Shown here: in pieces, positions 4,227 to 38,793 of the stretch | Position numbering within the stretch: position 1 is the first letter of the stretch | Layout: each line of letters begins with the position of its first letter | Source of the DNA: an uncultured Hyphomicrobiales bacterium | GTDB taxonomy: Bacteria > Pseudomonadota > Alphaproteobacteria > Rhizobiales > Beijerinckiaceae | Direction: 5' to 3' | Assembly: GCA_903884435.1 (NCBI GenBank) | Contig: CAISEY010000129.1 | Coordinates: 1-42,474 of the forward strand | DNA: 42,474 nt | Made by a program: the position numbers and the translations under genes | Notes under the pieces: model-generated | Database searches by the model: none | What the model saw: the letters and a program-made list of their open reading frames with translations, nothing else | What the model was told of the DNA's origin: nothing

Positions 4227-4237
4227 GACAGTCTCCC

Positions 4238-4645
4238 TCAGACGCGATCCCAGTAGATATGGCTCACGGAACCGTCCGGCCCCGGCTCGGTGACGAAGGT
4301 CATGCGCCGGCCCTCGATGGAGGCGTGGCGCACGCGCGTCTTGCCGGTCCAGGCGGGAAACAGCGCGGCCTCGACATGGTGAAAGACCACGCCGTCCTTC
4401 ACCTCGAACTTGCCCGTGTAGGCGGTGCAACCGTCGGCCGCTTTCGCCTTTTCCGCGTCGGTCATGTTCGCGGGATCGGCGGCGGACACGCCATCGGGGT
4501 CGGTGGAGACGACCATCATGTAGCCGTCGGCGGAATACTGGATGAATCCCGGCGTCGGGCCGCGCGCGGATTTCAGCGATCCGTTCTTGTTGAAAACCTT
4601 CTGCCCGCCGCCGCGCCAGGTTCCGACGATGTCCTTCGCGTTCAT
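4238..4645 (-). CDS. Lipocalin-like domain protein
   Basis: MNAKDIVGTWR...GFIQYSADGYMMVV...YTGKFEVKDGVVFHHVEAALFPAWTGKTRVR matches the lipocalin-like domain family pattern. Confidence 0.75.
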   Translation of the reverse strand: MNAKDIVGTWRGGGQKVFNKNGSLKSARGPTPGFIQYSADGYMMVVSTDPDGVSAADPANMTDAEKAKAADGCTAYTGKFEVKDGVVFHHVEAALFPAWTGKTRVRHASIEGRRMTFVTEPGPDGSVSHIYWDRV

Positions 4646-4755
4646 GGAGTCCTCCCGTTTCCGGGAAGACTAGCGCGGCGGCGCGCGGCTGGCCACCGTC
4701 GGCTTGCCCGCTTCCTCCGCCTCGCCTATGCAGGCGCGTCACACGAGGAGCCGCC

Positions 4756-5883: not shown

Positions 5884-5893
5884 TCTCCCCGCC

Positions 5894-7825: not shown

Positions 7826-7896
7826 GGCGTTTGGCGCCCGGCGCCGGCTTCTGTAGTGTCGCGCGCGACCATCGCCACACTCACGGGAGACGCCGC

Positions 7897-8970: not shown

Positions 8971-9083
8971 ACGTTTTCGCGTCGCGCCGGCGTGGTTTTC
9001 GATGATTGACATCGCCGCGTCGCCTATCTACCCCTGACGCTTGAAATGGCGCGTTTTCGACGCCATGCAATCAGGAGGAAACG

Positions 9084-10322
9084 ATGCCGCACGATGGCGA
9101 GGAACACTGGCACGAACCGAAAGACTGGACGCAAAAGGCGGGCAAGGGCGCGTTTCCGCGCCCGATCATGCCCTATGACCGGTTCATGAACGAACAGGGC
9201 ATTCCGATCGTGCGCGACTATGGCGTGCGCCGGGTGCAGGATCTGCCGCTGAAGCCCTGGAAGCGGATGGGCGGACAGGGGACGTTCATCCAGCTTTACG
9301 GCACGGAAGGCCTGTGGGGCTGCTACGTCGTGGAAGTCCCGGGAAGCGGCGCGCTCAACGCCGAAAAGCACATGTACGAAGAGCAGTTTCTCGTCGTCGA
9401 TGGCCGCGGATCGACCGAGGTCTGGCAGGATGGCGACACGAAGAAACACGTCTTCGAATGGCAGGCGGGCTCGATGTTCTCGGTGCCGATGAACGCCATG
9501 CATCGCATCGTCAACGCCTCGTCGACGCCCGCGCTGCTGCTGGCGGGCACGTCGGCGCCGAACGTGATGAACCTGATGGACAACGACGAACTCATGTTCA
9601 ACTGTCCGTTCGTGTTCAGGGACCGTTTCGACGGACGCGAGGATTATTTCAAGGCCGCGGACGGCGTCACGCGCGATCCGGTGCGCGGTCTCGCCATGCG
9701 CCGCAGCAACATCATTCCGGACGTGGTGAATTGCGACCTGCCGCTGGACAACCGGCGTTCGCCGGGCTCCCGCCGCCTGCAATTGCAGATGACCGGAAAC
9801 CGCTTTCACGTCTGGCTCGCGCAGCACCAGACGGGCCGCTATTCCAAGGCGCACGCGCACGGATCGGCCGCGGTTCTGCTTTGTCTGAAGGGCTCGGGCT
9901 ACAGCTATTGCTGGCCGAAGGACATCGGCACGCGTCCCTTCGAGGAAGGCAAGCGCGACAAGGTCGTGCGAGTCGATTACGAGCCCGTTGGCATGGTGAG
10001 CGCCGCGCCGGGCGGCGGCGACTGGTTCCACCAGCATTTCGGCATCGCGAAGGGCCCGTTGCGTCTCTCCGCCTGGTTCGGGCCGAACAACGCGCGCGGA
10101 CACGGCGCCGGCATTCCCGGCGCGTCGGTCAAGGACGCGGGCGCCATCGACATCCGCGACGGCGGCTCGGCGAGTCCCTATGACGAGGAAGATCCCTATC
10201 TGCGCAAGGAATACGAGGCGACGCTCGCGACCGTGGGCGCGACCTCGAGCATGGAAGACTGGCTCTACACGAAGCCGAAGGAGGGCGAAGTGCGCCCGAT
10301 GGCGGATTTCGTGGGGATGTAA
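9084..10322 (+). CDS. Bicupin (cupin domain-containing) protein
   Basis: Two cupin regions: EKHMYEEQFLVVDGRGSTEVW...PMNAMHRIVN and SKAHAHGSAAVLLCLKGSGYSYCW...DWFHQHFG; RBS aggagg upstream. Confidence 0.82.
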   Translation: MPHDGEEHWHEPKDWTQKAGKGAFPRPIMPYDRFMNEQGIPIVRDYGVRRVQDLPLKPWKRMGGQGTFIQLYGTEGLWGCYVVEVPGSGALNAEKHMYEEQFLVVDGRGSTEVWQDGDTKKHVFEWQAGSMFSVPMNAMHRIVNASSTPALLLAGTSAPNVMNLMDNDELMFNCPFVFRDRFDGREDYFKAADGVTRDPVRGLAMRRSNIIPDVVNCDLPLDNRRSPGSRRLQLQMTGNRFHVWLAQHQTGRYSKAHAHGSAAVLLCLKGSGYSYCWPKDIGTRPFEEGKRDKVVRVDYEPVGMVSAAPGGGDWFHQHFGIAKGPLRLSAWFGPNNARGHGAGIPGASVKDAGAIDIRDGGSASPYDEEDPYLRKEYEATLATVGATSSMEDWLYTKPKEGEVRPMADFVGM

Positions 10323-10330
10323 TCGGGACT

Positions 10331-10364
10331 TTCCGCGCCCGCCTCCGCGGGCGCGGAACGTTTT
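10331..10364 (+). terminator. Intrinsic terminator downstream of bicupin gene
   Basis: TTCCGCGCCCGC-CTCC-GCGGGCGCGGAA-CGTTTT: perfect 12-bp stem, 4-nt loop, short T tract, between convergent genes. Confidence 0.85.
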
Positions 10365-10366
10365 CA

Positions 10367-11380
10367 TTACTTCGTCAGGGACAGCACGCGTTCGACGGTG
10401 GCCTTCGGCGTCGCCATGAGTCGCCGGGCGATCTCCTGCAAGTCCTCGCCCTTGCGAAGGGTCAGCCTGAAATTCAGCTTCGCCGCGTCGGCCCTGAATT
10501 CCGGGTCGGCCAACATGGCGTCGAACGAGCGGCGCAGCGCCTCGACGCGCTCGGGCGGCACGCCGGGCGGGGCGACGATGGGCCGTCCGAATTCGAGACT
10601 GGTCATGTAGAGGTCGATGATCTCGCGCTGTTCCCCGTTCGTCGTGAATTCATAGATCGTGGGCGCTTTCAGGTCCGGTTCGGGATCGTGCAGCATCGAG
10701 AACAGAACCTTGAGGCGCCCCTGTTCGATCCAGCCGGGACGCACGGCGCGAAAGCCCGACAGGGAATTGCACAGGCCCTGGATTTCGCCCTTTTCCATGG
10801 CGAGCATGGCGGCGTCGGCGCCGCTGTAGCCCTCGATCAGCCTGAACTTCATGCCGAGCAATTTCGACAGCAGCATCGGCGTGTTGCTGAAGCCGGAGCC
10901 CGCGCCGGCGCCGCCGACGATGAGTTCGCGGTCGAAGAGATCGCCCGCCGTTTGCACGGGAGCGCCGTCCATCGCCGCGCAGACGCGGTTCGTCTGTTCG
11001 CCGCTGCCGATCCAGTTGAATTTCGACGGATCGAACTTGATGTTGGCCTCGCCGAGCAAGGCGTACCAGGGCAGGGACCGCTCGAACATCAGGATCGTCG
11101 CGCCCTGCCTGTCGGACATGTTGTAAAGATAGTTGGCGGCGATGACCTGTCCCGCGCCGGGCATGAATTCCACGAGGAATGTCGGTCGCCCCGGAATGAA
11201 CCGGCCCCAGTGGCGCGCGAAGAGGCGCGCCCAGAAGTCATAATCCGTTCCCGCGGGATAGCCGGAGATGAAGCGGATTTGCTTGCCCTTGTAAAAATCC
11301 TCGACGGGATCGGCGGCGGCGCGCGCCATGCCGGCGATCGAGGCCAGCAACATTGTCAGGATACCCAGCAACCGGACCAC
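10367..11380 (-). CDS. Tripartite tricarboxylate transporter (TctC/Bug-family) substrate-binding protein
   Basis: Signal peptide then DPVEDFYKGKQIRFISGYPAGTDYDFWARLFARHWGRFIPGRPTFLVEFMPGAGQVIAANYLYN. Confidence 0.88.
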   Translation of the reverse strand: MVRLLGILTMLLASIAGMARAAADPVEDFYKGKQIRFISGYPAGTDYDFWARLFARHWGRFIPGRPTFLVEFMPGAGQVIAANYLYNMSDRQGATILMFERSLPWYALLGEANIKFDPSKFNWIGSGEQTNRVCAAMDGAPVQTAGDLFDRELIVGGAGAGSGFSNTPMLLSKLLGMKFRLIEGYSGADAAMLAMEKGEIQGLCNSLSGFRAVRPGWIEQGRLKVLFSMLHDPEPDLKAPTIYEFTTNGEQREIIDLYMTSLEFGRPIVAPPGVPPERVEALRRSFDAMLADPEFRADAAKLNFRLTLRKGEDLQEIARRLMATPKATVERVLSLTK

Positions 11381-11415
11381 GGACGTCCTCCCTGTTGTCG
11401 CGTCGCGCGTCGTCG

Positions 11416-12432
11416 CTACCGTCTGACCGGCGTGTCGACGCCCGGAGACACAAGCTCCGAACGCGCCTTGCCAAGCGTCAGATCGACCTCGCGTCCGAGG
11501 CCTTTCGCGCGCGCGAGTTCGTAGACGGCCGCGGAGACGGCCACGTCCTCGATGGCGATCCCGTGAGATTCGAAGAGGATCGTGTGCTTGTCGGGATCGG
11601 GTAATGGCGTGGCGCCGGCCACGACATCGCCGAGTTCGCGCACGCGGTCCCAGTTCAAAACGCCATGCGCGGCGGCCCAGAGCAGATCGCCGCTCTCGAT
11701 TTTCGCCTGGCCCTTGTTGTCGACGACGACGAGTCCGGCCGTCCTGATGAGTTCCTCGTCGACCTCGCGCTCGAACCACTGGTTCGCGCCGATTCCGAGA
11801 ACGAGGCCCGGACGCGTCATCCATTTGCCGAACACGACGGGCGCGTGGGAATTGGTGATGGTGAGGACGATGTCGACGTCGCGCGCGGCGTCCTCGGGCG
11901 CGCTCGCGGGCGAGACATCGACGCCGAGGGATTTCGAGGCCTCGACGCAGAAGGCCTCGCGCGATTTCGCGGTGCGGCTCCAGGCCTTCACCTTCCTGAT
12001 CGGACGCACGGCGGCGACCGCGCGCAACTGGGATTCGGCGAGGCGGCCCGTGCCGTAGAGGCCGATGCTGCTCGCGCCGGACCGCGCCAGATATTTCGCG
12101 GCCACCGCGGTCGTCGCGCTGGTGCGGAAACGGCCGAGCGAATAGGCGTGGAGGATGGCGAGGAGCTCGCCGGTCTCGAGGCTGAACAGATAATTCCAGC
12201 TATGGGAGGGGCCGGAGCCAAAGTTGGCCCAGAGCTTGAAACCCATCACCTTTTTGTCGTGGATGGCCGCCGCGCCCATGCGCATGAAGCCTTCTTCCAG
12301 GGGCATGACGAAGCGCGGCGGATTGTTTGTCGCGCCTTGTCCCGCCATGCGAAACGTGTCCTCGATGACGGGGATCGCCTGTTCGACGGAATAAAGCTGT
12401 TCGATGATGTCCTGGCTGATCAGCAGAGTCAT
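11416..12432 (-). CDS. Ornithine cyclodeaminase family protein (second copy)
   Basis: MTLLISQDIIEQLYSVEQAIPVIEDTFRMAGQG...IGLYGTGRLAESQLRAV...HTILFESHGIAIEDVAVS. Confidence 0.88.
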   Translation of the reverse strand: MTLLISQDIIEQLYSVEQAIPVIEDTFRMAGQGATNNPPRFVMPLEEGFMRMGAAAIHDKKVMGFKLWANFGSGPSHSWNYLFSLETGELLAILHAYSLGRFRTSATTAVAAKYLARSGASSIGLYGTGRLAESQLRAVAAVRPIRKVKAWSRTAKSREAFCVEASKSLGVDVSPASAPEDAARDVDIVLTITNSHAPVVFGKWMTRPGLVLGIGANQWFEREVDEELIRTAGLVVVDNKGQAKIESGDLLWAAAHGVLNWDRVRELGDVVAGATPLPDPDKHTILFESHGIAIEDVAVSAAVYELARAKGLGREVDLTLGKARSELVSPGVDTPVRR

Positions 12433-12461
12433 TTTTTCGATCCTGTCGGACGGCGGCGCGA

Positions 12462-13496
12462 TTATTTCGGCGAGACGGCGGCTTTCGCCGCTTTCAGAAC
12501 GTCGGGCGGGCTGGCGTAGACGGTTTTCAGGAGATTCTGGATGGTCTCGCCGGGCGCGGGCTCGATTTCGAGTTTCATCTTGCCGGCTTCCCGCATCAGG
12601 TCGGGATCGTTCCATGTCTCCATGAAAGCCCGGCGCAGGGCCGCGACACGATCGGCGGGAACGTCCGACGCGACGAAATAGGGACGCGCGAAAAGCTGCT
12701 GCGAATACACGATGGCGAGCACGCGGCGGCTCAACGCGTCGCGCGTGTAGGAAACCGTCAGCGGCAGTCCCATGGCGTTGAGTTCGGGATGGCCCCGTTC
12801 GCTCAGTTGCGCGACGGGCACGAGCTCCCTGCTGGCGAGAAGCGCGCCGTATTGCGATTTCATGGCGCGCCAGCCGAGTCCGCACTGGCCGTCGATCTCG
12901 CGCTTGAGAATGGCCGTCGTGATGTTCGCGGCGCCGGGATAGCCCAGCACGACCTTGAACTTCGTGCCGACGAGATTGTTTAGGATGGTTGGATGATAGC
13001 CGCTCGCGGTATTGGCCGCGGCGCCGCCCATCACGACTTCCGTCCTGAACATTTCCTCGAATTTCGTCGTTGGCGCCCCGGCGCGCACGAGGCAGACGGA
13101 GACCTCGTTCACGGCGCTGCCGAGGTAATGCAGCTTCGCGGGATCGTAGCCGGGGGCGGTCTCGCCAAGCACGGGATCGAGCGGCTGGCTGGCGAAGGTC
13201 GCGGCGACGATCGTGCCATCCTTCGGCCCGACCCGCGCGGCCCAGGTCGCGGCCGTCTCGCTGCCGGCGCCGGGCATGTTGTTGACGATGACGGTCGGCT
13301 CGCCGGGGACGTGCTTGCCGAGAAACCGCGCGAACAGGCGTGCGTAGGTGTCATAGGGGCCGCCGGCTTCGGTGCCGACGAGAACCGTCATGGTCTTGCC
13401 GCGGTAAAATTGCGCGACGGCGTCCTGCGCCGCCGCCCGCGGGGCGGACGAGCAGGCCAATAGCGCCATCGCGGAGGCGAGAGCCTTCCCCGGCAT
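12462..13496 (-). CDS. TctC/Bug-family substrate-binding protein (second copy)
   Basis: QFYRGKTMTVLVGTEAGGPYDTYARLFARFLGKHVPGEPTVIVNNMPGAGSETAATW. Confidence 0.88.
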   Translation of the reverse strand: MPGKALASAMALLACSSAPRAAAQDAVAQFYRGKTMTVLVGTEAGGPYDTYARLFARFLGKHVPGEPTVIVNNMPGAGSETAATWAARVGPKDGTIVAATFASQPLDPVLGETAPGYDPAKLHYLGSAVNEVSVCLVRAGAPTTKFEEMFRTEVVMGGAAANTASGYHPTILNNLVGTKFKVVLGYPGAANITTAILKREIDGQCGLGWRAMKSQYGALLASRELVPVAQLSERGHPELNAMGLPLTVSYTRDALSRRVLAIVYSQQLFARPYFVASDVPADRVAALRRAFMETWNDPDLMREAGKMKLEIEPAPGETIQNLLKTVYASPPDVLKAAKAAVSPK

Positions 13497-13580
13497 GTCG
13501 TTTCCTTCCCGATCCGGCGGGATCGAACGTCCCGTCCGGCGCCCGGTGTCGCGACTCCCCCGGAGTCACGCCCGAACTTG

Positions 13581-13592
13581 CTTGTCGACAAG
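13581..13592. promoter_or_regulatory. Candidate GntR/FCD-type operator palindrome upstream of TctC gene
   Basis: CTTGTCGACAAG, perfect 12-bp palindrome of the TTGT-N2-ACAA class, about 85 bp upstream of the 13496 start. Confidence 0.3.
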
Positions 13593-13647
13593 AACAAACA
13601 GCATGCGGATCGCGTCCGTCAAGCGGCCACGGCGCGGTTTCGCGCCC

Positions 13648-14856
13648 TCACGCGCGCGGCGTGTGACTATACAGCCAGTCCAGCCGGTTCATCATGCGGT
13701 TGGCGCCGAGCCTTTGCATCACCTGATCGCGCGCGAAGGCCATGGGGCCGCGCATGTGATAGATCGCGCCCTGTTTGCGCGAGGCGACGACGACCGCGCC
13801 GGCCCGGCGCGCGCGCGCCGTTTCATAGGCCGAGAGCGCCGCGTTGACGTCGCCGGAGCCTTTGGCGAAGGCCTCGCCGAGGGCGGCGGCGTCCTCGACG
13901 GCCTGCGCCGCGCCCTGCGCGAAAAATGGCAACATGGGATGGGCGGCGTCGCCGAGCACCGCGACGCGGTCGACGCGCCAGCGCCGGGAGGGATTGCGGT
14001 CGAACAGCGGCCAGCGCCGCCATTCGCGCGCCGAGGCGACGATGGCGCGAGCCTCGTCCGCCCAGGACGAGAAGCAGGGCGAAATCTCCGCCGGGCCGGA
14101 CGGGATGTTCCAGAGATCGTCGGCGTCCTCGGCCCGCCAGGGATCCTCGGAGATGGCGACGATGTTGAGGAACTCGCCATGGCGGACGGGATAGTGGACG
14201 AGATGGGCTCTCGGACCCAGCCAGAGTCCCGTTTCCAGCAGCATGGCGGCCGGCGGAGCCGCGGCAGCGGGCACGAGGGCCCGCCAGGCGGTGCGCCCGG
14301 ACCAGACCGGGGAGTCGGCGAGGCCGAGGCCCAGCCTCTCGCGGACAACGGATCTCAGTCCGTCCGCTCCAACGAGAAAATCCCCGTCGAAACGGATCAT
14401 CGTCTCCCCTTCGAGCGCGCCGATCTCGACGCGGCTTCCGGTCACGGCGAAACCGGTGACGCGGACGCCGGCGCGGATGGAAATCGCGCTTTCGCCGGCG
14501 CAGGCTTCCATCAGCGCGCGTTGCAGATCGGCGCGGTGGATCACCGTGTAGGGCGCGCCCCAGCGGAACTCCGCGATGGGGCCAAGCGGCAGGCGCGCCA
14601 GCTCCCTGCCGTCGCGGGCGCGGCGGATGCGCAGGGCCTCGGGCGTCGAGGCGAATTTCATCACGCGGTCGAGCAGGCCGAGATCGCGCAGCCGGCCGGT
14701 GGCGTTGGGCGCGAGTTGCAGCCCGGCCCCGGCCTCCTCGATCACCGGCGCCCGTTCGAGCACGGTGACGCGCAGACCGGCGCGCGCGAGCGCGAAGGCA
14801 GCCGAGAGGCCGCCGACGCCGGCGCCGGCGATCACCGCGTGGAGTTGCTGGGTCAA
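13648..14856 (-). CDS. FAD-dependent aromatic monooxygenase (salicylate/3-hydroxybenzoate hydroxylase-like)
   Basis: HAVIAGAGVGGLSAAFALARAGLRVTVLERA; GADGLRSVVR; LGDAAHPMLPFFAQGAAQAVEDAAALGEA. TTG start at about 14856 assumed, which avoids overlap with 14885-15133. Confidence 0.88.
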   Translation of the reverse strand: MTQQLHAVIAGAGVGGLSAAFALARAGLRVTVLERAPVIEEAGAGLQLAPNATGRLRDLGLLDRVMKFASTPEALRIRRARDGRELARLPLGPIAEFRWGAPYTVIHRADLQRALMEACAGESAISIRAGVRVTGFAVTGSRVEIGALEGETMIRFDGDFLVGADGLRSVVRERLGLGLADSPVWSGRTAWRALVPAAAAPPAAMLLETGLWLGPRAHLVHYPVRHGEFLNIVAISEDPWRAEDADDLWNIPSGPAEISPCFSSWADEARAIVASAREWRRWPLFDRNPSRRWRVDRVAVLGDAAHPMLPFFAQGAAQAVEDAAALGEAFAKGSGDVNAALSAYETARARRAGAVVVASRKQGAIYHMRGPMAFARDQVMQRLGANRMMNRLDWLYSHTPRA

Positions 14857-14884
14857 TCGGCTGGTCCGGTGAGGGCGCGCCGCG

Positions 14885-15133
14885 TCAGGCGGCGGCTTCG
14901 GTCGTCCATTCGCATTCGGCGGGGTCCGAATGGCCATGGAGACTGGCGTCGAACGTGTAGTGCGTCGAGCAATAGGGGCAAATCGCCTCGTTGTCGCCGC
15001 CCATGTCGATGTAGATGTGGGGATGGTCGAGCGGCGGCAGTGCCCCGATGCACATGAATTCCTTCGCGCCGACGCGCACGGCGCGCAGGCCGGGCTGGTT
15101 GTGGAAGTGCGGCGTCGAATGATCGGATGCCAT
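14885..15133 (-). CDS. Zinc-finger (CHCC-type, NDUFS6-like) domain protein
   Basis: EFMCIGALPPLDHPHIYIDMGGDNEAICPYCSTHYTF; Cys/His/Cys/Cys pattern. Confidence 0.88.
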   Translation of the reverse strand: MASDHSTPHFHNQPGLRAVRVGAKEFMCIGALPPLDHPHIYIDMGGDNEAICPYCSTHYTFDASLHGHSDPAECEWTTEAAA

Positions 15134-15221
15134 GGGGGCCTCTGACGGACAGGGTCTATTCGCGGCGCAACATAGAGAAGCCAGGGCGGCTTGGGTAGGG
15201 GAAAGAAACGCCGCGCGGGTT

Positions 15222-15908
15222 TCAGTCCGGCGTCAGGCCCCTTGACCGGTAGACGGCCTTCGCTTCCGGCGATGTCAGGAATGTCAGCAGCGCTCGCGCC
15301 GCGTCCGCCTGTTTCGCGCCGGTCGAGACGACGCCGGCGAAGCCGACGTAGCTTTTTGGGTTGCCCGTCTCGAGCGGCACGGATTGCACCGCTTTTTCAG
15401 CGACGATTTCGCTGACGAGGCCGACGCCCGCTTCCGTCTCGCCAGCGGCGACGGGTTTGGCGAATTCGCCGGGCGGCGAGAATTTCGTTTTGGGGCGCGT
15501 CTGGTCGGCGACGCCGAGGCGCACGACCAGATTGTCGAAATAGACCGAGCCGAACCCGCCGGCGGCGGGGTTGCCGCTGGAAATGGTCTTCAGCGATAGC
15601 AGCCAGGCCTTCAATTTGTCGTCGGTGGAGAGGTCGGGGCGGGGCGCGTCGGGCCGGATGGCGAAGCCCATGCCGGCGCGGGCGATGGACGCGCGCGTCT
15701 CCGCGACCCCCTTGCCCGCCCTGACGATGTCGTCGATCTGCGGCGGATTGAGGATCGCGAGATCGAAGGCTTCGCCCGCGTCGATCTTGCCTTTCATCTG
15801 CACGGCGGTGCCGAAGAGAATTTCGACCTCGTGGCCGCTGGCCTTTTCGAATTGCGGAATGAGTTCCTCGATGGCCGGACGAACGCCGACGGAAGAGACG
15901 AGTTTCAT
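15222..15908 (-). CDS. ModA-like molybdate/extracellular substrate-binding protein
   Basis: MKLVSSVGVRPAIEELIPQFEKASGHEVEILFGTAVQMKGKIDAGEAFDLAILNPPQIDDI; C-terminal AARALLTFLTSPEAKAVYRSRGLTPD. Confidence 0.8.
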   Translation of the reverse strand: MKLVSSVGVRPAIEELIPQFEKASGHEVEILFGTAVQMKGKIDAGEAFDLAILNPPQIDDIVRAGKGVAETRASIARAGMGFAIRPDAPRPDLSTDDKLKAWLLSLKTISSGNPAAGGFGSVYFDNLVVRLGVADQTRPKTKFSPPGEFAKPVAAGETEAGVGLVSEIVAEKAVQSVPLETGNPKSYVGFAGVVSTGAKQADAARALLTFLTSPEAKAVYRSRGLTPD

Positions 15909-16071
15909 GACGGCGGCCCTTGCTGTTGCACCGGTGGACAGGGATGCCGCGGCGAGGATCGCGGTCGCGATCCCTCGCGAGTTTCGACTCCCCGGTTCCT
16001 GTTTTCCGCAGTCTAGACGCCCGGTCCGGCGGAGTCTCGCGCTCCGGACGGAAATCTGGCCACGCCGGGGG

Positions 16072-16500
16072 CTATTTCGGGTTGTTGATGGTGACGATCA
16101 GATAGCGGGTCCTGTCGCCTTCGCCGGTCAGGCGCGCCCAGACGTTGGCGTCGCCGGCGCCGATCATGACGCCCTGCCAGTTTTCGAAGACGTCCACCGG
16201 GTCTTGCGCGAGAATCGCCGCGCGGAGTTTCGGCCCGACGAGCCAGGCGTAGTTCTTCATGAAAAAGACGGGCGAGCGGATCAGTCCGCCAGCTTTCCCG
16301 GCGCCATGGCGCGCGGGATATTTCAAACGGGCCGCGATCCATTTCGCGTCGCTGGCGCGTATGGCTTTTTGCAGATCCATGACGAACGTCTCGCGGGCGT
16401 CCGGCGCGTCGCGCGGGTCCGCCCGCGCCGGGCCGGCGATCGCGAGCGCGGCGCAAAACGCGCCAAACAGCGCGAGCGCGTCGCGCCGCCCGGCCCTCAT
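16072..16500 (-). CDS. Hypothetical secreted protein
   Basis: MRAGRRDALALFGAFCAALAIAGPARADPRDAPDARETFVMDLQKAIRASDAKWIAARLKYPAR...; signal peptide; ATG overlaps the stop of the upstream monooxygenase gene. Confidence 0.7.
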   Translation of the reverse strand: MRAGRRDALALFGAFCAALAIAGPARADPRDAPDARETFVMDLQKAIRASDAKWIAARLKYPARHGAGKAGGLIRSPVFFMKNYAWLVGPKLRAAILAQDPVDVFENWQGVMIGAGDANVWARLTGEGDRTRYLIVTINNPK

Positions 16501-17711
16501 GGCGTCCCGGCTCGCGGGGTCGCCAGGCCCGTGGCGACATCGACCCCGTCGTAGATCCACGCGAGGCATTTGTAGACGTCGTCGCGCGAGCGGCCCTTGC
16601 ATTCGTCGTTGCGCACGTCGCGCGCGACGCCGCCGAGATGGTAAAACTCCCAGAGGGCGCGGGATTCCAGCACGACGCGGGCGGCGCGCAGATAACGGAC
16701 GTTTTCGTAATTCCTGAAAGCCGTTTCGAAATCGCCTTTCGCGGCATCGACGCTGCTCGCCAGCACCACGGCGTCCTCGATCGCCATGCAGGCGCCCTGC
16801 GCGTAGCTCTGCAACGTCGGGTGCGCCGCGTCGCCAAGCATGGTCACGCGTCCCTTGCTCCAGTGGCGAACCGGATCGCGGTCGGCGAGAACCCAGCGGC
16901 GTTCCACGTCCATCATCGCGAGCATTTCGAGCATCGAGGGATGCGCGTTCGCGTAGGTCTCCATGAGAACCTTGCGATAGGTCTCCGCGTCGGCGCGCTG
17001 GTGAATGTCCGGCGTTTTGAACACGGCGACGATGTTGAACAGCGTCTTGTCGCGCAGCGGATATTGCACGATGTGAAAACCCGGGCCGCCCCACAGGATC
17101 ACCTCGTCGCGCCGCACGCTCGCCGGCGCCTTGTCCCAGGGCACGATGGTGCGATGGGCGACATAGCCGATCGGGCGCGGCGGCTCTTCCTTCACGAGCT
17201 TCGCCCGCACCGTGGACCCGAGCCCGTCCGCGCCAATCAGCGCCGCTCCCTCGATGACGCGTCCATCCTTCGAGGTCGCGCGCACGCGATCGCCCAGATC
17301 CTCGAAGGAGGCGAGCTCCGTCGAGGGCATGATCTCCACGTTGTCGAGTCCCTTGCAGGCGTCGAGCAGGCACCCGTGCAGATCGACGCGATGAATCGCG
17401 ACATAGGGGTCGCCAAAGCGCTCGCGGAAGGGCGCGCGGGCGTCGACTTTCATCACCTCCTCGCCGCTCAGCGCGTCGAGCATCATCACGTCGGGCGGAA
17501 AGTGCGAGTGTTTCAGCACGGCTTCCTCGACGCCGAGCTCGCGGAACATGCGAAACACGTTGGGGCCAAGCTGGATGCCATAGCCAATCACGCCGAGTTC
17601 GGCGGTCGCCTCGAGGATGCGGACGCGACGCCCCTTGCGCGCGAGACCGAGCGCGGCCGCGACGCCGCCGAGGCCGGCGCCGACGACGAGAATGGGAAGA
17701 TCGCGTGTCAT
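16497..17711 (-). CDS. FAD-dependent monooxygenase (3-hydroxybenzoate 6-hydroxylase / NahG-like)
   Basis: LPILVVGAGLGGVAAALGLARKGRRVRILE; GADGLGSTVRAKL; MLGDAAHPTLQSYAQGACMAIEDAVVLA. Confidence 0.9.
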   Translation of the reverse strand: MTRDLPILVVGAGLGGVAAALGLARKGRRVRILEATAELGVIGYGIQLGPNVFRMFRELGVEEAVLKHSHFPPDVMMLDALSGEEVMKVDARAPFRERFGDPYVAIHRVDLHGCLLDACKGLDNVEIMPSTELASFEDLGDRVRATSKDGRVIEGAALIGADGLGSTVRAKLVKEEPPRPIGYVAHRTIVPWDKAPASVRRDEVILWGGPGFHIVQYPLRDKTLFNIVAVFKTPDIHQRADAETYRKVLMETYANAHPSMLEMLAMMDVERRWVLADRDPVRHWSKGRVTMLGDAAHPTLQSYAQGACMAIEDAVVLASSVDAAKGDFETAFRNYENVRYLRAARVVLESRALWEFYHLGGVARDVRNDECKGRSRDDVYKCLAWIYDGVDVATGLATPRAGTP

Positions 17712-27527: not shown

Positions 27528-28421
27528 TCAGGGAGTCTGGCGCATGTGGGAGGGCGCCGGCGGAGTGCCCCAGCCCGACGCCCAGACGTGAGGCTCCCAG
27601 ACCTTCGGGCGCTGCGGGCGATCGACGTGCCAGGGACGCGGCTCGAAATAGCCGAGTTCCTCGTTCTTCATCTGGTCGAGTTCGCAATAATATTCGACGA
27701 CATGGTCGTCGGGATTGCGATGGTAGGTCGCGAGATTGTGGCCTGGGCCGTGCCGCATCGGTCCCCATCCCAGGGGAATGCGGCGCATCGACAGAGCCTC
27801 GCAGCTTTGCTGCATGTGCGCGAAATCCTTCAGTTCGAAGGCGAGGTGGTGGAGCTTCGGCTTCGAACCGCGGAAGAAATTCACGGTGTGATGATCCGGG
27901 TTGCAGCGCATGAAGACGAAGAAGTCGCCGAGCCAGTCGGACACCCGGAACCCGAGAATACGTTCGTAGAAACTCACGAGGCCCTGCACGTCCGGCGTGA
28001 AAAAGGCGATGTGACCGACCTTCAGCGGACCAATTCCGGCGACGTTCTGGTTGCCGGCGACGAAATCCCATTTCCGGAACAGATCGATGGCGGTGCCCTT
28101 GGCGTCCATGAACGTCAAAACCTCCGGCGTGCCGGGAAACGGATCCTTGCGGATTTCGCTCGGGATGCCTTCCGAGGCCAGAAATCTCCCCATGGCGGCG
28201 AAATCGGAGGCCGGCGCCACCTCGAAGGAGAGGCGCGTGCAGTCGGCCCTGTCGCCCTTGACGAGCGAGAGCGTGAGTTGCCCGATTTTGGTGGCGAGGT
28301 GCGCGCCTCCGGCGTCCCGGTGGGTTATGACGAAGCCATTGAGATCGACGAAATAGTCCAGAGATTTTTGCAAATCGGGCGTCTCGATGGTCGCGTGTCC
28401 CATGCGTTGCGCTTTGATCAT
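27528..28421 (-). CDS. VOC-family extradiol dioxygenase-like protein
   Basis: Two VOC modules; VGHIAFFTPDVQGLVSFYERILGFRVSDW, LHHLAFELKDFAHM, HVVEYYCELD (putative 2-His-1-Glu). Confidence 0.88.
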   Translation of the reverse strand: MIKAQRMGHATIETPDLQKSLDYFVDLNGFVITHRDAGGAHLATKIGQLTLSLVKGDRADCTRLSFEVAPASDFAAMGRFLASEGIPSEIRKDPFPGTPEVLTFMDAKGTAIDLFRKWDFVAGNQNVAGIGPLKVGHIAFFTPDVQGLVSFYERILGFRVSDWLGDFFVFMRCNPDHHTVNFFRGSKPKLHHLAFELKDFAHMQQSCEALSMRRIPLGWGPMRHGPGHNLATYHRNPDDHVVEYYCELDQMKNEELGYFEPRPWHVDRPQRPKVWEPHVWASGWGTPPAPSHMRQTP

Positions 28422-28493
28422 GGCTTGTCCTCCCGGAGATCGGGGCACATTAGCCCGCGCCGCCCGCGTGGCAAGGGGTTCGCCTTCGGCGCG

Positions 28494-28563: not shown

Positions 28564-30459
28564 ATGAAGGAACTCATCAGGCAATATATCGACAAGGGCA
28601 TCTCGCGCCGCGATCTGACGAAAGGCCTGACCGCCGCGGGACTGACCGCCGGCGCCGCCAAAACCATCGCGCAATCCCTGGCGCCGCCCGCAGCCGCGCA
28701 GACCGCGGCGCCGGCCGCGCAGCCGAAAATCCGCGACATGAAGGGCACGGGCGGCGCGATGTTCACGCAGCAGCTGAAGGCCGCCGGCGTTGAATTCATC
28801 TTCTTCAATCCCTCGACGGCGGATTCGCCGATCTTCGATTCCCTCGTCAACGAGCCGGGCATTCAGCTCATCAAGGGCGTGCAGGAAGGCGCGTGCGTCG
28901 CCATGGCCGACGGTTACGCGCGCGCCTCGGGCAAGCTTGGCGTCGTCATCGTCGCCAACGTCGGCCTGCCGAACGCGGTCACGCAAATGGTCAACGCCTT
29001 CAAGGACCAGACGCCGATCCTCGTCGCGGCGGCCTCGGTCGCGCAGGAGAGCGTGGGCCGCGAGGCGTATCAGGAATACGAAAACATCGAGCGCGTCACG
29101 CAGCCCATCACCAAGTGGCACTGGGTGGCGACCTCCACCGCCGGCATCGCGGAGACGACGCGGCGCGCGGTGAAGTTCGCGACGACGCAACCCTCGGCGC
29201 CCGTTTACCTTTCGATTCCCGAAAACCTGCTGCGCACCGAGGGACAGACGCAGATTTACGACAAGTCGCTGTTCGAAGTGACCATGCGGGTGCGGCCCGA
29301 CAAGCAGGACGTCGAGGCAGCCGCGCGCATGATCATCGAGGCGAAAAATCCGCTGTTGTCGATCGGCGACGAAATCTTCCAGTGCAACGCGGAAAACGAG
29401 GTTCTAGAACTCGCGGAATTGCTGGGCCTGCCGACGGCGGGGCAGGGCGGTTCGCTCGGCTTCTGGACAAAGCCGTTCCCGTCGAAACATCCGCTTTATC
29501 TTGGCACGCTGTTGCGGCAGATGCGTTTTCCCGGCGACGTCGACGTGCATCTCAACATCGGCTCGAAGTTCGGCGAGCAATACATGCCGGGCGCGAAACA
29601 GATTTCGATGCGCCGCGACCCGACCTCGCTGGCGCGCGGCGCGCCGGTCGATCTCGGCATGATCTCCGACATCAAAATCGGGACGCGCGATCTCGTCGAC
29701 GCCGTCAGGAGCCTCGCGACCGAGGCGCGGCTGAAAGAGATCGCCGGCGAGCGTCTCGCGCGCGCCGCCGCGTTCACGACGAAGCTGCGCAAGATGCTCG
29801 ACAAGGTGATCAGGGAAACGCCCTACGACGGCGAGATCACCATGGAGCGGCTTGGCATCGAACTCGAGGCGTCGCTCGAGCGCGACACGATCTGGGTGAA
29901 CGACGTCGACAGCGGCAAGCGCATGGACGCTTTCATGAGCTGGGGCCCGAGGGACAAGCAATATCTGGGGACCGGACCCAACGTGCTCGGCTGGGGCATG
30001 GCCGCGGGGCTTGGCGTGAAGCTCGCCAAACCCGACCGGCCCGTGGTTTCGGTCGTCGGCGACGGAAGTTTCCTGTTCAGCGGGCCGCAGCCGCTGTGGT
30101 CGATTTCACGCTACCAGGCGCCAATCACGGTGCTGGTGCTCAACAACCGCAGCTACAACAACGAGCGCAACCGCATCTGGATGAGCGGCGGCGCGCAGTT
30201 CCAGGCCGGGCGCGACATGACCTGCTACCTCGGCTCGCCCGACGTCGATTACGCGAAAACCTCCCAGGCCTTCGGCGTCGACGCGGAAATCGTGAAAGAC
30301 CCGCGGAAGATTCAGGAAGCGGTGCTGCGCGCGAAAAAGGCCAACGCGGACGGGCGTCCCTATCTCCTCGACATCAACCTCGCCCGCAACGGCATCGGCA
30401 ACACATCCACCTGGCATCCCGCCTATTCCCTCGCCTCCAAGCGCACGCGGAAGGTCTGA
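28564..30459 (+). CDS. ThDP-dependent acetolactate-synthase-like enzyme with Tat-like N-terminus
   Basis: N-terminal GISRRDLTKGLTAAGLTAGAAKTIAQSLAPPAAAQ; catalytic-Glu region IKGVQEGACVAMADGYARASGK; ThDP motif GDGSFLFSGPQPLWSISRYQAPITVLVLNNRSYNN. Confidence 0.9.
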   Translation: MKELIRQYIDKGISRRDLTKGLTAAGLTAGAAKTIAQSLAPPAAAQTAAPAAQPKIRDMKGTGGAMFTQQLKAAGVEFIFFNPSTADSPIFDSLVNEPGIQLIKGVQEGACVAMADGYARASGKLGVVIVANVGLPNAVTQMVNAFKDQTPILVAAASVAQESVGREAYQEYENIERVTQPITKWHWVATSTAGIAETTRRAVKFATTQPSAPVYLSIPENLLRTEGQTQIYDKSLFEVTMRVRPDKQDVEAAARMIIEAKNPLLSIGDEIFQCNAENEVLELAELLGLPTAGQGGSLGFWTKPFPSKHPLYLGTLLRQMRFPGDVDVHLNIGSKFGEQYMPGAKQISMRRDPTSLARGAPVDLGMISDIKIGTRDLVDAVRSLATEARLKEIAGERLARAAAFTTKLRKMLDKVIRETPYDGEITMERLGIELEASLERDTIWVNDVDSGKRMDAFMSWGPRDKQYLGTGPNVLGWGMAAGLGVKLAKPDRPVVSVVGDGSFLFSGPQPLWSISRYQAPITVLVLNNRSYNNERNRIWMSGGAQFQAGRDMTCYLGSPDVDYAKTSQAFGVDAEIVKDPRKIQEAVLRAKKANADGRPYLLDINLARNGIGNTSTWHPAYSLASKRTRKV

Positions 30460-30461
30460 CC

Positions 30462-30971
30462 ATGAAAACCCCACTTTCCGCCGCCGTTTTCGCGACGTTC
30501 CTGACGGCCGGCGCGGCGCTCGCGCAGGCGCCCGTGCAGTTTCCGCCGGGCGAGGGCCGCGACATCGTCGCGGTCGCCTGTTCGCAATGCCACGCGCCGA
30601 ACATCATCACCTTCATGCGCAAGAACGCCGCGGGCTGGCGCACGCATGTCTACGACATGTTCATCCGCGGGGCGCAGGTCACGGACACGGAAATGGACGT
30701 GGTCGTGGATTATCTCGCGACGAATTTCGGGCCCGGCGTCAACGTGCCGAAATTCGAGGCGGTCGCGTTGCCCGACGGCGCGGGCAAGGACTTGCTGCAA
30801 CAGCGCTGCGGCACGGCCTGTCACGATCTCACGCGCGTGACCGTGGCCCGTCACGGGCGCAACGACTGGGACGGGGTCGTCGCGCAAATGATGGAGTTCG
30901 GCGCGCCGGTCACTCTCGACGAGGGCAAGACCATCGCCGCCTACCTGAAAGACAGGTTCGGCGAGAAATAG
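30462..30971 (+). CDS. Diheme c-type cytochrome (secreted)
   Basis: Signal peptide MKTPLSAAVFATFLTAGAALAQ; CSQCH and non-canonical CGTACH; ATG 2 bp after the preceding stop. Confidence 0.85.
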   Translation: MKTPLSAAVFATFLTAGAALAQAPVQFPPGEGRDIVAVACSQCHAPNIITFMRKNAAGWRTHVYDMFIRGAQVTDTEMDVVVDYLATNFGPGVNVPKFEAVALPDGAGKDLLQQRCGTACHDLTRVTVARHGRNDWDGVVAQMMEFGAPVTLDEGKTIAAYLKDRFGEK

Positions 30972-31294: not shown

Positions 31295-32323
31295 CTATTT
31301 CGCCGATGGATGTTTGTAGGGGCCGAGGTCTTTCGCGGCGGCTTCGGCGAAGGAGGCGTCGACGGCCTGTTCGACCGTCACCTCGCCCTCGATCAGTCCC
31401 TGCTTGCGGAAAATTCCGAGATCCTCGCGCAGGCTCGGCAGGTGGAGCGTTCCATCGGGATGCAGGGCCGCCGGCGTGATCGAGCGGATGAGATCCGCGT
31501 CCTTGATGTGGGAATATTCCGCGATGATCGAGACGATCTCGTCGCCCGCGGGTCCGACGAATTTATTGTCGACGATGGCGTCGGCGTAGGCGCGCACGCC
31601 GCGCAGATAGGCGCGCATGAAGCGCCGGGCGACATCGGTCTTTCTGGCGAATTGTCCGGAGTATAGAACCACGGCGACCTGATGGTCGGGATAGACGGCG
31701 TCGTCGGCCAGCACGCGCGCGCCGACGCCGAGCTTCACGACCTCGGACACCATGGGCTCGGCCATCAAGGCGGCGTCCACCGCCTTGTTGGCGAGGGCCG
31801 GAACCTGTTGCGGCAGCGGCATGAACACGCGCTCGACGTCGTTGACGGTGATGCCTGCCTTTTCGAACACCTTGTCGAGCGTCGTGGTGGAAGAACCGCC
31901 GGGCGCGGGCGAGACGATCTTCATCCCCCGGAGATCCGCGAGGGTCCGGTATCGCCCGCTCTCGACGAGATCCTTCCTCACGACGACGAATTGCGCGCCG
32001 CGGCCGGGCACGGTCTGGTTCTTGTCGGCGACGATGCGAATGTCGACGCCGCGCGCCACGGCGTTGTAGAGGCCCGCCGAGGGGCCGCCGCCGCCGACGT
32101 CGAGCGCGCCGGACGCGAAGAGCGTGATCATGCGCGCGGCGGAATCGAAAATGCTCAACTTCACGTCGAGCCCCTCGGCGCGAAAGAAGCCCTTCTTGTC
32201 CGCGACGTAGAGGCCCACGTCCGTCGTCGTGCCGGTCATGCCGGCGTTGACGGGCGTCAGCGGTTGCGCGCAGGCGCCGCCGAGCGTGAAGACAAGGCAG
32301 AAGGCCTTCAGCAATCGCGACAT
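31295..32323 (-). CDS. NMT1/ABC nitrate-sulfonate-type substrate-binding protein (paralog 1)
   Basis: Signal peptide; GLYVADKKGFFRAEGLDVKLSIFDSAARMITLFASGALDVGGGGPSAGLYNAVARGVDIRIVADK. Confidence 0.88.
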   Translation of the reverse strand: MSRLLKAFCLVFTLGGACAQPLTPVNAGMTGTTTDVGLYVADKKGFFRAEGLDVKLSIFDSAARMITLFASGALDVGGGGPSAGLYNAVARGVDIRIVADKNQTVPGRGAQFVVVRKDLVESGRYRTLADLRGMKIVSPAPGGSSTTTLDKVFEKAGITVNDVERVFMPLPQQVPALANKAVDAALMAEPMVSEVVKLGVGARVLADDAVYPDHQVAVVLYSGQFARKTDVARRFMRAYLRGVRAYADAIVDNKFVGPAGDEIVSIIAEYSHIKDADLIRSITPAALHPDGTLHLPSLREDLGIFRKQGLIEGEVTVEQAVDASFAEAAAKDLGPYKHPSAK

Positions 32324-32342
32324 GTCGGGGCTCCGCGGTGGT

Positions 32343-33377
32343 TTACTGCTTTTTCCAGGGGCCGAGTTCCTTCACCGCCCAGTCGACGAAGCTCGTGTCG
32401 ATGACCTGTTCGATCTCGATCTGGCCCTCGATGTATTTCTGCTTCTTGAAGAGATCGAGGTCTTCCTTCAGGCTCGCGACGTGCAGCGTCCCGTCCGGAT
32501 TGCAATAGCTGAGGATGAACGAGCGCCAGACGGCGGCGTCCTTGAACGGTCCGTATTCGAGCGCGATGGCGACGATTTCATCGCCCCGGGCGCCGACGAA
32601 TTCGCCGTTCGGGCCGAGCGAGTCGTTGTGGTAACGCACGCCGCGCAGGAAGGCGCGCATGAAGCGGCGGGCGAGATCGACGTCGGTTTTGGCGAACTTG
32701 CCCGAATACATGATCTCCGAGACTTCATGGACGGGATAGACGTCGTAGTCGTTGGCGACGGCGACGACGCCGCCCATGCGCAGGGCCTGCGTCACCGAGG
32801 GTTCCGCCGGCAACGCCGCGTCGATGGCGCCGTTTTGCAGCGCGATCGTCATTTGCGGGAAGCTCATGTAGACGCGCTCGATGTCGTTGTAGGTCAGGCC
32901 GCCCTTCTCGAGCATTTTCACGATCACGGGGAACGCCGATCCGCCTGGCGCCGCCTCCGCGACCTTGAGGCCCTTGAGGTCGGCGAAGGTTTTGTACCTG
33001 CCGGAATCGACGAGCTCCTTGCGCACCAGCAGCTTGATGCTGGAGCGGCCCACGACGTTCTGGCTCTTGTCGGAGACGATGCGGATGTCGATGCCGCGCG
33101 CCACGGCGTTGAACAGGCCCGCCGAATGGCCGCCGGCGGACACATCGAGTTCGCCGGTGCCGAGCGCCGCGATCATGCGCGCGGCGGAATCGAAGGTGAT
33201 GAATTCAGCGTCGATGCCCTCGTCGCGGAAATAACCCTTCTTGTGGGCGACCCAGAGGCCGATGTCGGTCGCCGACAGGGTGCCGCCGATGGTCACTTTT
33301 TTCATCGGCGTTTGCGCCGGCGCCGGAGAGACGGCGGCGAGCGCGACGAGGGCCAGCGCGGCGAGAAATTTCATCAT
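32343..33377 (-). CDS. NMT1/ABC-type substrate-binding protein (paralog 2)
   Basis: GLWVAHKKGYFRDEGIDAEFITFDSAARMIAALGTGELDVSAGGHSAGLFNAVARGIDIRIVSDK. Confidence 0.88.
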   Translation of the reverse strand: MMKFLAALALVALAAVSPAPAQTPMKKVTIGGTLSATDIGLWVAHKKGYFRDEGIDAEFITFDSAARMIAALGTGELDVSAGGHSAGLFNAVARGIDIRIVSDKSQNVVGRSSIKLLVRKELVDSGRYKTFADLKGLKVAEAAPGGSAFPVIVKMLEKGGLTYNDIERVYMSFPQMTIALQNGAIDAALPAEPSVTQALRMGGVVAVANDYDVYPVHEVSEIMYSGKFAKTDVDLARRFMRAFLRGVRYHNDSLGPNGEFVGARGDEIVAIALEYGPFKDAAVWRSFILSYCNPDGTLHVASLKEDLDLFKKQKYIEGQIEIEQVIDTSFVDWAVKELGPWKKQ

Positions 33378-33403
33378 CTTGCACTCCCGTGTGAATGGGC
33401 CGT

Positions 33404-34432
33404 TTATCTCGCCGCCGGCCGGTAGGGGCCGAGTTGCCGGACCGCGGCGTCGAGGAAGCTCGTGTCGACCGCCTTTTCAACCGTCACGTCGCCCTGGATC
33501 AAGCCGATTTCGCGAAAAATGTCGAAATCGCTCTTCATGCTGACGGGATCGAGCCTGCCGTCGGGGTGAATGGCGCTCTGCACGAAGGAGCGATGCACGG
33601 CGGGATCCTTGATCAGCGAATATTCCGTCAGGATCGCCACCACCTCGTCGCCGCGCGGGCCGGCGAAAACCCCCTTCTCGATGGCGTCGTTGAAATCGCG
33701 CACGCCGCGGAGATAGGCCTTGATGAAGCGCGTCGCGAGATCTGTTTTCCGCGCGAAATGGCCGGGATAGATCACCGCGGAAATCGTGTGGTTCGGGTAG
33801 ATTTCATCGTCGCCCATCACGCGCACCGCGCCATTGCGGATGGCGTCGCTGGCTTGCGGCTCCGCCGGCAGGGCGAGGTCGATGGCCTTGTTTTGCAAGG
33901 CGACGACCTGTTGCGAGAAGGACATGAAGACTTCCTCCACGTCGCCCCACTTGAGGCCGGCGCGGTCGAGCAGCTTCTTCAGGGTGCCATCGCCGGAGCC
34001 GCCAGGGGCGGAATTGGCGAGTTTGAGGCCCTTGATGTCGGGCAGGCTTTTGTATCGCCCGCTGTCGATCAGATCCTTGCGGATGAGCAGCTTGGTGCTG
34101 GCCCTGCCCGGCGGCGTCGAGTTTTTGTCGGCGACCATGCGGATGTCGATGCCGCGGGCCACGGCGTTGTAGAGGCCCGCCGAGATGCCGCCCGCCGCGA
34201 CATCGAGGTCGCCGGAGGCGAGCGGCGCGATCATTTTCGCGGCGGAATCGAAGACGATGAATTGCGCGTCGATGCCCTCGTCGCGGTAATAGTTCTTCTT
34301 GTGGGCGATGAAGAAGCCGACGTCGGTCGCGGAATTGGTGAGGCCGACGTTGACTTTCACGAACGGCTGGGCGCGGGCCGGCGCGAGGGTCGCCGCCAGC
34401 AGGGCGAAAGCGATGAAAATACGCGGCGCCAT
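33404..34432 (-). CDS. NMT1/ABC-type substrate-binding protein (paralog 3)
   Basis: GFFIAHKKNYYRDEGIDAQFIVFDSAAKMIAPLASGDLDVAAGGISAGLYNAVARGIDIRMVADK. Confidence 0.88.
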   Translation of the reverse strand: MAPRIFIAFALLAATLAPARAQPFVKVNVGLTNSATDVGFFIAHKKNYYRDEGIDAQFIVFDSAAKMIAPLASGDLDVAAGGISAGLYNAVARGIDIRMVADKNSTPPGRASTKLLIRKDLIDSGRYKSLPDIKGLKLANSAPGGSGDGTLKKLLDRAGLKWGDVEEVFMSFSQQVVALQNKAIDLALPAEPQASDAIRNGAVRVMGDDEIYPNHTISAVIYPGHFARKTDLATRFIKAYLRGVRDFNDAIEKGVFAGPRGDEVVAILTEYSLIKDPAVHRSFVQSAIHPDGRLDPVSMKSDFDIFREIGLIQGDVTVEKAVDTSFLDAAVRQLGPYRPAAR

Positions 34433-34637: not shown

Positions 34638-35516
34638 ATGGACAAGTTCGTCGTCGCGCCGCATTTTCGCCTGCACGAATGGGTCGCGGAGGAAAAGGGC
34701 TATTTCGCCGCGGAGGGACTTGATTACGAGTTCCGCGAAACCATGGATTCGCAGGCCTCCCAGGGGCATCACATCGGCAACAAGGTTGGCGCCTACCAGA
34801 CCTTCGAGAAAGGGCGCGAGTGCAACGTCAGCGGCGCCTGCCACTGGACGGTGAACGTCGCGGCCTCCAACGGGCATGGCAAGCTCTATTCCGAATGCTA
34901 TTCGGTATCGCCCGCCGGCGTCTTCGTGCCCGCCGATTCAAAAATCAAAACGCCCGCCGATCTCAGGGGCGTGCCGATCTCCGTCGGTTTCCAGTCCGGC
35001 AGCCATTACGCGACCATCCAGGCGCTGGAGCAGTACATGCCGATCACGGACATGGAAATGTCCTTCAACGACGGCCTGCTGTTCGCGCGCATGGAGGCGC
35101 TTGTCGATGGCAGGACGCCGGCCTGTTCGGCGTTCAGCGGGCCCTATTATTTTCTCGAGCAACTCGGTTTTCGCAAGGTCATCGACACGACCTTCATGAT
35201 GGCCTCGATGATCACCGGCGAACCCGACCCCGCCGACGTGCGAAAATATTTTCGCGCGTTGCGCCGCGCCCAGCACGACATCGACCTGCGGCCGGAGCTT
35301 TACACGCGCTATTACAAAAAGGAATTCCCGGCGCGGTTCCACGGCGTGATGGACACGCGCCGCTGGGGCCCCGGCGAGCGTATCGTCTTCGAGCCCTATT
35401 CAAAGGAGATTTTCGAGGACACGTTCAAATGGGTCGGCGAGCGCGAGATTTTCGGCAACGCCAGCATGGGCCACGGGCGCTACGAGGACGCGATTTTCAG
35501 CGTTGCGGCGGAGTAA
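34638..35516 (+). CDS. NMT1-like substrate-binding-fold protein without signal peptide
   Basis: MDKFVVAPHFRLHEWVAEEKGYFAAEGLDYEFRETMDSQ...PADLRGVPISVGFQSGSHYATIQALEQYM; no hydrophobic N-terminus at the ATG with local context. Confidence 0.75.
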   Translation: MDKFVVAPHFRLHEWVAEEKGYFAAEGLDYEFRETMDSQASQGHHIGNKVGAYQTFEKGRECNVSGACHWTVNVAASNGHGKLYSECYSVSPAGVFVPADSKIKTPADLRGVPISVGFQSGSHYATIQALEQYMPITDMEMSFNDGLLFARMEALVDGRTPACSAFSGPYYFLEQLGFRKVIDTTFMMASMITGEPDPADVRKYFRALRRAQHDIDLRPELYTRYYKKEFPARFHGVMDTRRWGPGERIVFEPYSKEIFEDTFKWVGEREIFGNASMGHGRYEDAIFSVAAE

Positions 35517-37072: not shown

Positions 37073-38031
<959 letters not shown>

Positions 38032-38035
<4 letters not shown>

Positions 38036-38793
38036 ACATTCACGCGGTCCGCGCCATCTTCATGTTCGAGATCAACCGCAGCCTGCGAACGCTCTTCCAG
38101 AGCCTCGCCGCCCCGGTGATTTCGACGTCGCTGTATTTCATCGTCTTCGGCGGCGCCATCGGCGGTCGCATGACCGCGGTCGATGGCGTTTCCTGTGGCG
38201 CCTTCATCGTGCCGGGCCTCCTCATGCTGACGATTTTGACCGAGAGCGTCTCCAATTCCTCGTTCGGGATTTATCTCCCCCGTTTCACGGGCACGATCTA
38301 CGAATTGCTCTCGGCGCCGGTTTCGGCGTTCGAGGCCGTGCTTGGCTACGTCGGGGCCGCCGCCACGAAATCCGTCGTGCTCGGGATCGTGATTTTGGCG
38401 ACGGCGCGGCTGTTCGTGCCTTTCAGCATCGCCCATCCCGCGCTGATGATCGTCTTTCTGGCGCTGATTTCCGTCACTTTCAGCCTGTTCGGCTTCATTC
38501 TTGGCGTCTGGGCGGACGGTTTCGAGAAGTTGCAGATCGTGCCCCTGCTGATCATCTCGCCGCTGACGTTTCTCGGCGGGACGTTTTATTCAATCGACAT
38601 GCTGCCGCCGGTCTGGCGCGCCGCCGCGCTGTTCAATCCAGTGGTCTATCTGGTCAACGGATTTCGCTGGGCGTTTTTTGACAGGGCGGAAGTGGACGTC
38701 TGGATCAGCGTCGGCATGACGCTCGTTTTTCTGGCGGCTTGCCTTGTCCTGACTGGATGGATTTTCCGGACTGGATACCGCTTGCGGACGTGA
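38032..38793 (+). CDS. ABC-2 type transporter permease
   Basis: Multi-TM protein translationally coupled (ATGA overlap) to the ATPase; [45 protein letters not shown]-2 signature. Confidence 0.92.

Follow-up and report, generated by a model that had tools for sequence, protein, structure and literature searches.

A ThDP-dependent enzyme with a twin-arginine N-terminus and a c-type cytochrome encoded directly behind it form a gene pair in the DNA analysed here (the window, a stretch of 42,474 nucleotides; contig C129 of a draft genome of 5.3 Mb in 461 contigs). The pairing of exported-type ThDP enzymes with cytochromes is real, conserved and repeated, and the pair on balance probably constitutes a periplasmic, ThDP-dependent system that oxidises a 2-oxoacid (or an aldehyde) and feeds the electrons to cytochrome c. 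Coordinates and motifs given for both genes in the initial annotation proved correct, save for the second haem motif of the cytochrome, which is CX3CH. The gap of 2 bp between the genes was confirmed as well, the TGA of the enzyme gene ending at 30459 and the ATG of the cytochrome lying at 30462. The pair comprises the following features.

28564 to 30459, forward strand: ThDP-dependent enzyme of 631 aa from exported-type clade I (window type A), with the fold of benzoylformate decarboxylase and acetolactate synthase
28564 to 28701, forward strand: N-terminal twin-arginine segment, ISRRDL...PPAAAQ (residues 1-46)
28885 to 28887, forward strand: catalytic Glu108 (QEGA), which activates ThDP N1' and is aligned with Glu47 of benzoylformate decarboxylase (BFDC)
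30058 to 30147, forward strand: ThDP/Mg2+ motif GDG(499-501)-x25-NN(527-528), residues 499-528
30462 to 30971, forward strand: secreted diheme cytochrome c of 169 aa with two SorB/QHNDH-like haem modules

The enzyme begins with MKELIRQYIDKGISRRDLTKGLTAAGLTAGAAKTIAQSLAPPAAAQ and carries TPP_enzyme_N, M and C domains in this order (93.8, 49.9 and 92.4 bits, each above its cut-off). Among aligned clade I members, E108, G499, D500, G501 and N528 are present in 57 of 57 and N527 in 56 of 57, so the catalytic-Glu region and the GDGx(n)NN motif are as had been claimed from the sequence; the equivalent of Glu108 is also found in all six outgroup proteins. Codon scoring, trained partly on the two ORFs themselves, retains both as genes. 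The AlphaFold model of the enzyme (pLDDT 91) matched BFDC, glyoxylate carboligase (GCL), AHAS and HKA synthase in Foldseek. A profile built from 63 homologues placed BFDC and BbmA structures at the top (~1e-97) and acetolactate synthases after them; it ranks BFDC, which has no FAD, above the FAD-dependent AHAS, as a profile comparison only.

With BFDC of Pseudomonas putida (PDB 1bfd) the enzyme shares a ThDP fold of three domains at 23-25% identity; the Foldseek TM is ~0.71 by query and 0.85 by target, and in neither protein is a FAD site obvious. Glu47, Ser26 and His281 of BFDC align with E108, T85 (S/T) and H309. In a test of the active site, equivalents of Ser26 (Ser/Thr) and His281 were kept while that of His70 was not, and the score against the BFDC equivalog NF005485 was 205.3 bits, below the cut-off of 493. 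BFDC is cytoplasmic and is not known to have a cytochrome partner. The best NCBIfam model by E-value is the acetolactate synthase large subunit (TIGR00118), with domain order and ThDP motif in common; the score of 218.7 bits is below the cut-off of 538, no small subunit gene was seen adjoining, and the window enzyme is of the exported type. Every named-family (equivalog) cut-off in NCBIfam was missed by wide margins, so homology does not give the specific reaction.

Among enzymes of solved structure, those closest to the window protein are benzoylformate decarboxylases, which are free of FAD, and BbmA (HKA synthase) is just as close. This would suit an exported non-oxidative decarboxylase or carboligase of the BFDC kind, whose aldehyde product is oxidised by a separate periplasmic dehydrogenase served by the cytochromes. 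The lack of conservation at the His70 position argues against it, and with the gene neighbourhood described below we consider it rather unlikely.

The cytochrome ORF is preceded by a Shine-Dalgarno-like GGAAGG and has a Sec-type leader, MKTPLSAAVFATFLTAGAALAQA. With this leader and a CSQCH site the protein qualifies as a secreted c-type cytochrome, as initially proposed; its assignment as diheme has to accommodate a second motif, CGTACH, that is CX3CH and not canonical CX2CH. The CX3CH form occurs only in the window cytochrome and its two closest relatives (L020, L021), all other aligned diheme homologues having CX2CH at the second site, and altered haem attachment in the window lineage is possible. 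PF09098 (Dehyd-heme_bind) is matched above its cut-off. The haem modules resemble in sequence those of SorB and quinohemoprotein amine dehydrogenase, but the window cytochrome is a tandem diheme, its partner is a ThDP enzyme instead of SorA or QHNDH, and it falls below both the SorB and the QH_alpha cut-offs (60.3 bits against 93 for the SorB model NF052246, with no sorA seen nearby). Type A loci have a single diheme cytochrome downstream of the ThDP gene. In type B loci the upstream cytochrome is SorB-like and monohaem, and another monohaem cytochrome often follows downstream.

The sub-threshold SorB match could also indicate a sulfonate route, in which the ThDP enzyme acts on a sulfo-2-oxoacid or sulfo-aldehyde, by desulfonation or decarboxylation, and the SorB-like cytochrome takes electrons from sulfite. 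A sub-threshold match of a neighbouring binding protein to the SsuA family, sub-threshold Xsc matches and a TauE sulfite-exporter gene in locus L061 point the same way. However, each of these matches is below its cut-off or confined to single loci, Xsc scores are lower than those of acetolactate-synthase models, and a sulfite dehydrogenase is absent nearby, making this route extremely improbable.

The N-terminal segment of the enzyme is strongly conserved. In 51 aligned N-termini, M1, S14, R15, R16, G26 and A32 are invariant, and SRR is kept in 55-56 of 57 rows, homologues from other genomes being alignable from residue 1; the twin-arginine segment is thus retained by homologues. A scan of a genome collection gave ~66 of them (MAGs or single cells) in Alphaproteobacteria, Betaproteobacteria and Acidobacteriota, most aligning from residue 1, while alignment with remoter ThDP enzymes begins only at residue 47-74. 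Compared with the Tat consensus (S/T)RRxFLK, the window's SRRDL has SRR and the hydrophobic residue at +4 and lacks F and K. SRRxFL is present in most relatives of the window protein. Type B proteins (37% identical) closely keep the (S/T)RRxFL consensus, and in many of them the segment ends with an A-x-A-Q site, whereas many type A members have no AxA site.

The window N-terminus gave 11.4 bits against NCBIfam TIGR01409, below the cut-off of 16.7 bits (converted to E ~0.0084), which was about reached or bettered by 9 of the 51 clade I N-termini, the window protein not among them. Pfam TAT_signal matched one of five tested N-termini, below threshold. The window segment is amphipathic and charged at positions 20 and 33 (K20, K33), a point absent from the initial annotation, and its maximum 13-residue KD mean is 1.00, compared with 1.37-1.95 in six known Tat signals. 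AlphaFold modelled residues 1-40 as three short helices (pLDDT 83-90), and such a confident three-helix N-terminus would be unusual for a cleaved signal. As a control, a clade II protein whose Tat signal is classical was modelled from nine sequences, with a pLDDT of 54 that is too poor for comparing N-termini.

The confidently modelled helices, the charged, amphipathic and strongly conserved sequence, and the missing AxA site of many type A members could be explained if the segment in the window's clade were a folded helical module docking onto the membrane or a partner, and not a cleaved Tat signal. The enzyme would then be cytoplasmic or bound at the inner face, and the cytochrome linkage would mean something else. 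This explanation is unlikely in view of the invariant SRR, the consensus kept by type B, the A-x-A(Q) site closing the segment in many type B members, the nine N-termini at about the NCBIfam Tat cut-off, the exported cytochromes that adjoin nearly all members, and the unmistakable Tat signals of a second clade. The Tat-like signal initially ascribed to the window protein stands as a twin-arginine motif kept across homologues; it does not stand as a profile-level Tat match, and it looks in part like a folded helix. Judged from these sequences, export of the window-clade protein is likely, and TatC is encoded in the same genome.

Association of twin-arginine N-termini with cytochromes was assessed in 134 ThDP loci (homologues, outgroups and paralogues from the window's own genome) by scoring same-strand CxxCH ORFs within 600 bp. 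Both features were present in 84 loci and both absent in 29, eight had the N-terminus only, and none had the cytochrome only; the remaining loci were unscorable (contig ends or uncertain N-terminus). A CxxCH ORF is consequently linked in 84 of 92 scorable exported loci and in 0 of 29 scorable non-exported ones, compared with 3 of 134 in the opposite-strand control. Many homologues come from related lineages, and the 84 linked loci do not represent 84 independent events. The linkage spans two clades and several classes, with spacing usually tight and operonic. Conservation of the cytochrome neighbour across genomes, one of the initial expectations, is borne out by these counts and by the cytochrome family that adjoins the ThDP gene at 48 of the 67 loci of clade I. 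Since both the SRR and the adjacent cytochrome are conserved in other genomes, the observation is not due to chance. The cytochrome might still be a passive neighbour associated through shared regulation only, the window being a catabolic island rich in substrate-binding proteins, but the specificity of the linkage, over two clades and several classes, leaves very little room for this.

The eight exported-type loci with no adjacent cytochrome belong to Acidobacteriota and others. Loci L099-L102, from another alphaproteobacterial family, have twin-arginine N-termini and no cytochrome within 600 bp. The twin-arginine label was rejected for own-genome paralogues L119 and L123, in which the motif lies upstream of the true start, and an apparent enzyme-cytochrome read-through in L038 was rejected as an out-of-frame artefact. 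Two loci (L053, L054) come from metagenome bins titled Bordetella parapertussis, a name that looks wrong for their content.

The second clade surfaced in a search of the same genome for ThDP paralogues beside haem ORFs. In a tree of 100 thinned proteins (a quick method with no bootstrap), the twin-arginine label changes only twice, giving two separate exported clades with SH-aLRT of 100 and 99. Because this provides only two independent contrasts, too few for a significance test, a formal test of linkage is weak; the strength of the linkage lies instead in its consistency inside deep, diverse clades. Clade II has textbook Tat signals, for example LDRRGFLKGAVVAGGATMAAEAHAQ, MTARRTFLKEAIAAGASTALM...AQ and DRRGFLKGAVVAGGATMAAEAHAQ, and a secreted cytochrome c ~10 bp or less after the ThDP gene. 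Export of its enzymes appears very likely, and its unambiguous Tat signals together with the same cytochrome linkage strengthen the case for an exported system. As an illustration, plasmid p3 of Caballeronia zhejiangensis carries a clade II enzyme followed 8 bp on by a diheme cytochrome. The Caballeronia protein has the accession WP_244808613.1. Cultured members also include Burkholderia sp. SFA1, with a Tat-type enzyme and cytochrome, and Novosphingobium sp. KACC 22771, with an enzyme and two cytochromes. Where the signal is missing, in relatives from Thalassospira, Sinorhizobium, Phyllobacterium and Salipiger, the locus has no cytochrome either.

About five such genes are present in the window's genome, on C129 (the window), C217, C331, C80 and C233, those on the last three contigs (L114, L116 and L109) belonging to clade II; signal regions on C331 and C80 are wholly or partly lost to contig ends. 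Clade II occurs in 26 of 61 relatives, and clade I in 10 of the 61 genomes of the relatives set, all within the window's genus group. Sampling across the class gave clade I in 3 of 387 genomes, the window's own included; for the phylum, close clade II members turned up in 1 of 399 sampled genomes, which is the window's own. Dozens of bacteria from soil and fresh water have the pairing. Its distribution is patchy, with enrichment in the window's lineage and in environmental MAGs.

The immediate surroundings of the gene pair in the window comprise the following features.

27528 to 28448, reverse strand: extradiol-dioxygenase/glyoxalase-family protein, a divergent neighbour (Pfam Glyoxalase; HpaD-like below cut-off)
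31295 to 34432, reverse strand: three tandem NMT1/SsuA-like periplasmic substrate-binding proteins (PF09084/PF13379)

Binding proteins of this kind adjoin the gene pair in the closest relatives too (L020-L023), where they are conserved. In the window, a fourth one is encoded at 34638-35516 on the forward strand, and an ABC-type ATPase/permease-like pair lies no nearer than 37073-38793. Positions 3207-17711 form a catabolic island with two FAD monooxygenases, weak TctC-like and other substrate-binding proteins, and cobalamin-independent methionine synthase-like, ornithine cyclodeaminase family and cupin dioxygenase-like proteins. Neighbours vary by locus (TctC, NMT1 binding proteins, BKACE, extradiol dioxygenase, TonB receptor, pyrogallol-hydroxytransferase-like). 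They point to the catabolism of carboxylates or aromatics but to no single substrate. The substrate would probably be a catabolic, perhaps aromatic, 2-oxoacid.

Within 5 kb on the same strand, only two cytochrome families are consistently conserved at clade I loci (48/67 and 27/67). A TctC-type carboxylate-binding protein is next (23/67, median distance ~2 kb), and among the 67 loci the cluster has no further conserved oxidoreductase. This bears on the non-oxidative alternative: SorB/QHNDH-like cytochromes usually pair with other dehydrogenases, and some loci do contain catabolic oxidoreductases, such as a molybdopterin protein (L044) or a FAD monooxygenase (L060), but the cytochromes are the only consistent same-strand partners and a second oxidoreductase is not conserved. 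No other electron donor is thus evident, and parsimony favours the ThDP enzyme as the putative donor.

For the periplasmic oxidising system, we suggest that the enzyme acquires its fold and its ThDP/Mg2+ in the cytoplasm, likely followed by export through Tat. In the periplasm it would attack a 2-oxoacid or aldehyde, which is probably a catabolic carboxylate, aromatic or otherwise, to give an enamine/carbanion ThDP adduct, a step proposed from family chemistry and the conserved residues. The adjacent c-type cytochrome(s) would oxidise this adduct in two one-electron steps, yielding an acid and not just releasing an aldehyde, and would pass the electrons on to the respiratory chain. This putative transfer of electrons from ThDP to cytochrome is the mechanism that suits the pair best, and we know of no precedent for direct transfer from ThDP to haem. 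The periplasmic system initially envisaged is partly supported. It gains from the conserved twin arginines and cytochrome and from the Tat signals of clade II, and loses from the sub-cut-off N-terminus of the window protein. More tentatively, the two clades may be flavin-free periplasmic ThDP oxidases with at least two origins from cytoplasmic decarboxylase-type ancestors, in which the c-type haem of a dedicated cytochrome directly oxidises the enamine.

ThDP enzymes are typically cytoplasmic, and their electron acceptors are FAD, lipoate, Fe-S clusters and NAD-linked partners. Electrons from a 2-oxoacid also reach the respiratory chain through the ThDP enzyme PoxB (pyruvate:quinone oxidoreductase, formerly "pyruvate dehydrogenase (cytochrome)"), which uses FAD and quinone at the cytoplasmic face. 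In contrast, the window enzyme is of the exported type, comes with a c-type cytochrome and has no recognised flavin-binding family match. No description of a periplasmic or Tat-exported ThDP enzyme with cytochrome c was found in the open-access literature searched, and the pairing seems to be undescribed. With members on plasmids of cultured Caballeronia and Burkholderia, the system is directly testable. If the proposal is true, periplasmic oxidation of 2-oxoacids or aldehydes would be wired straight into respiration, a further class would be added to the cofactor-loaded cargo of Tat, and ThDP chemistry may have a new route of electron transfer.
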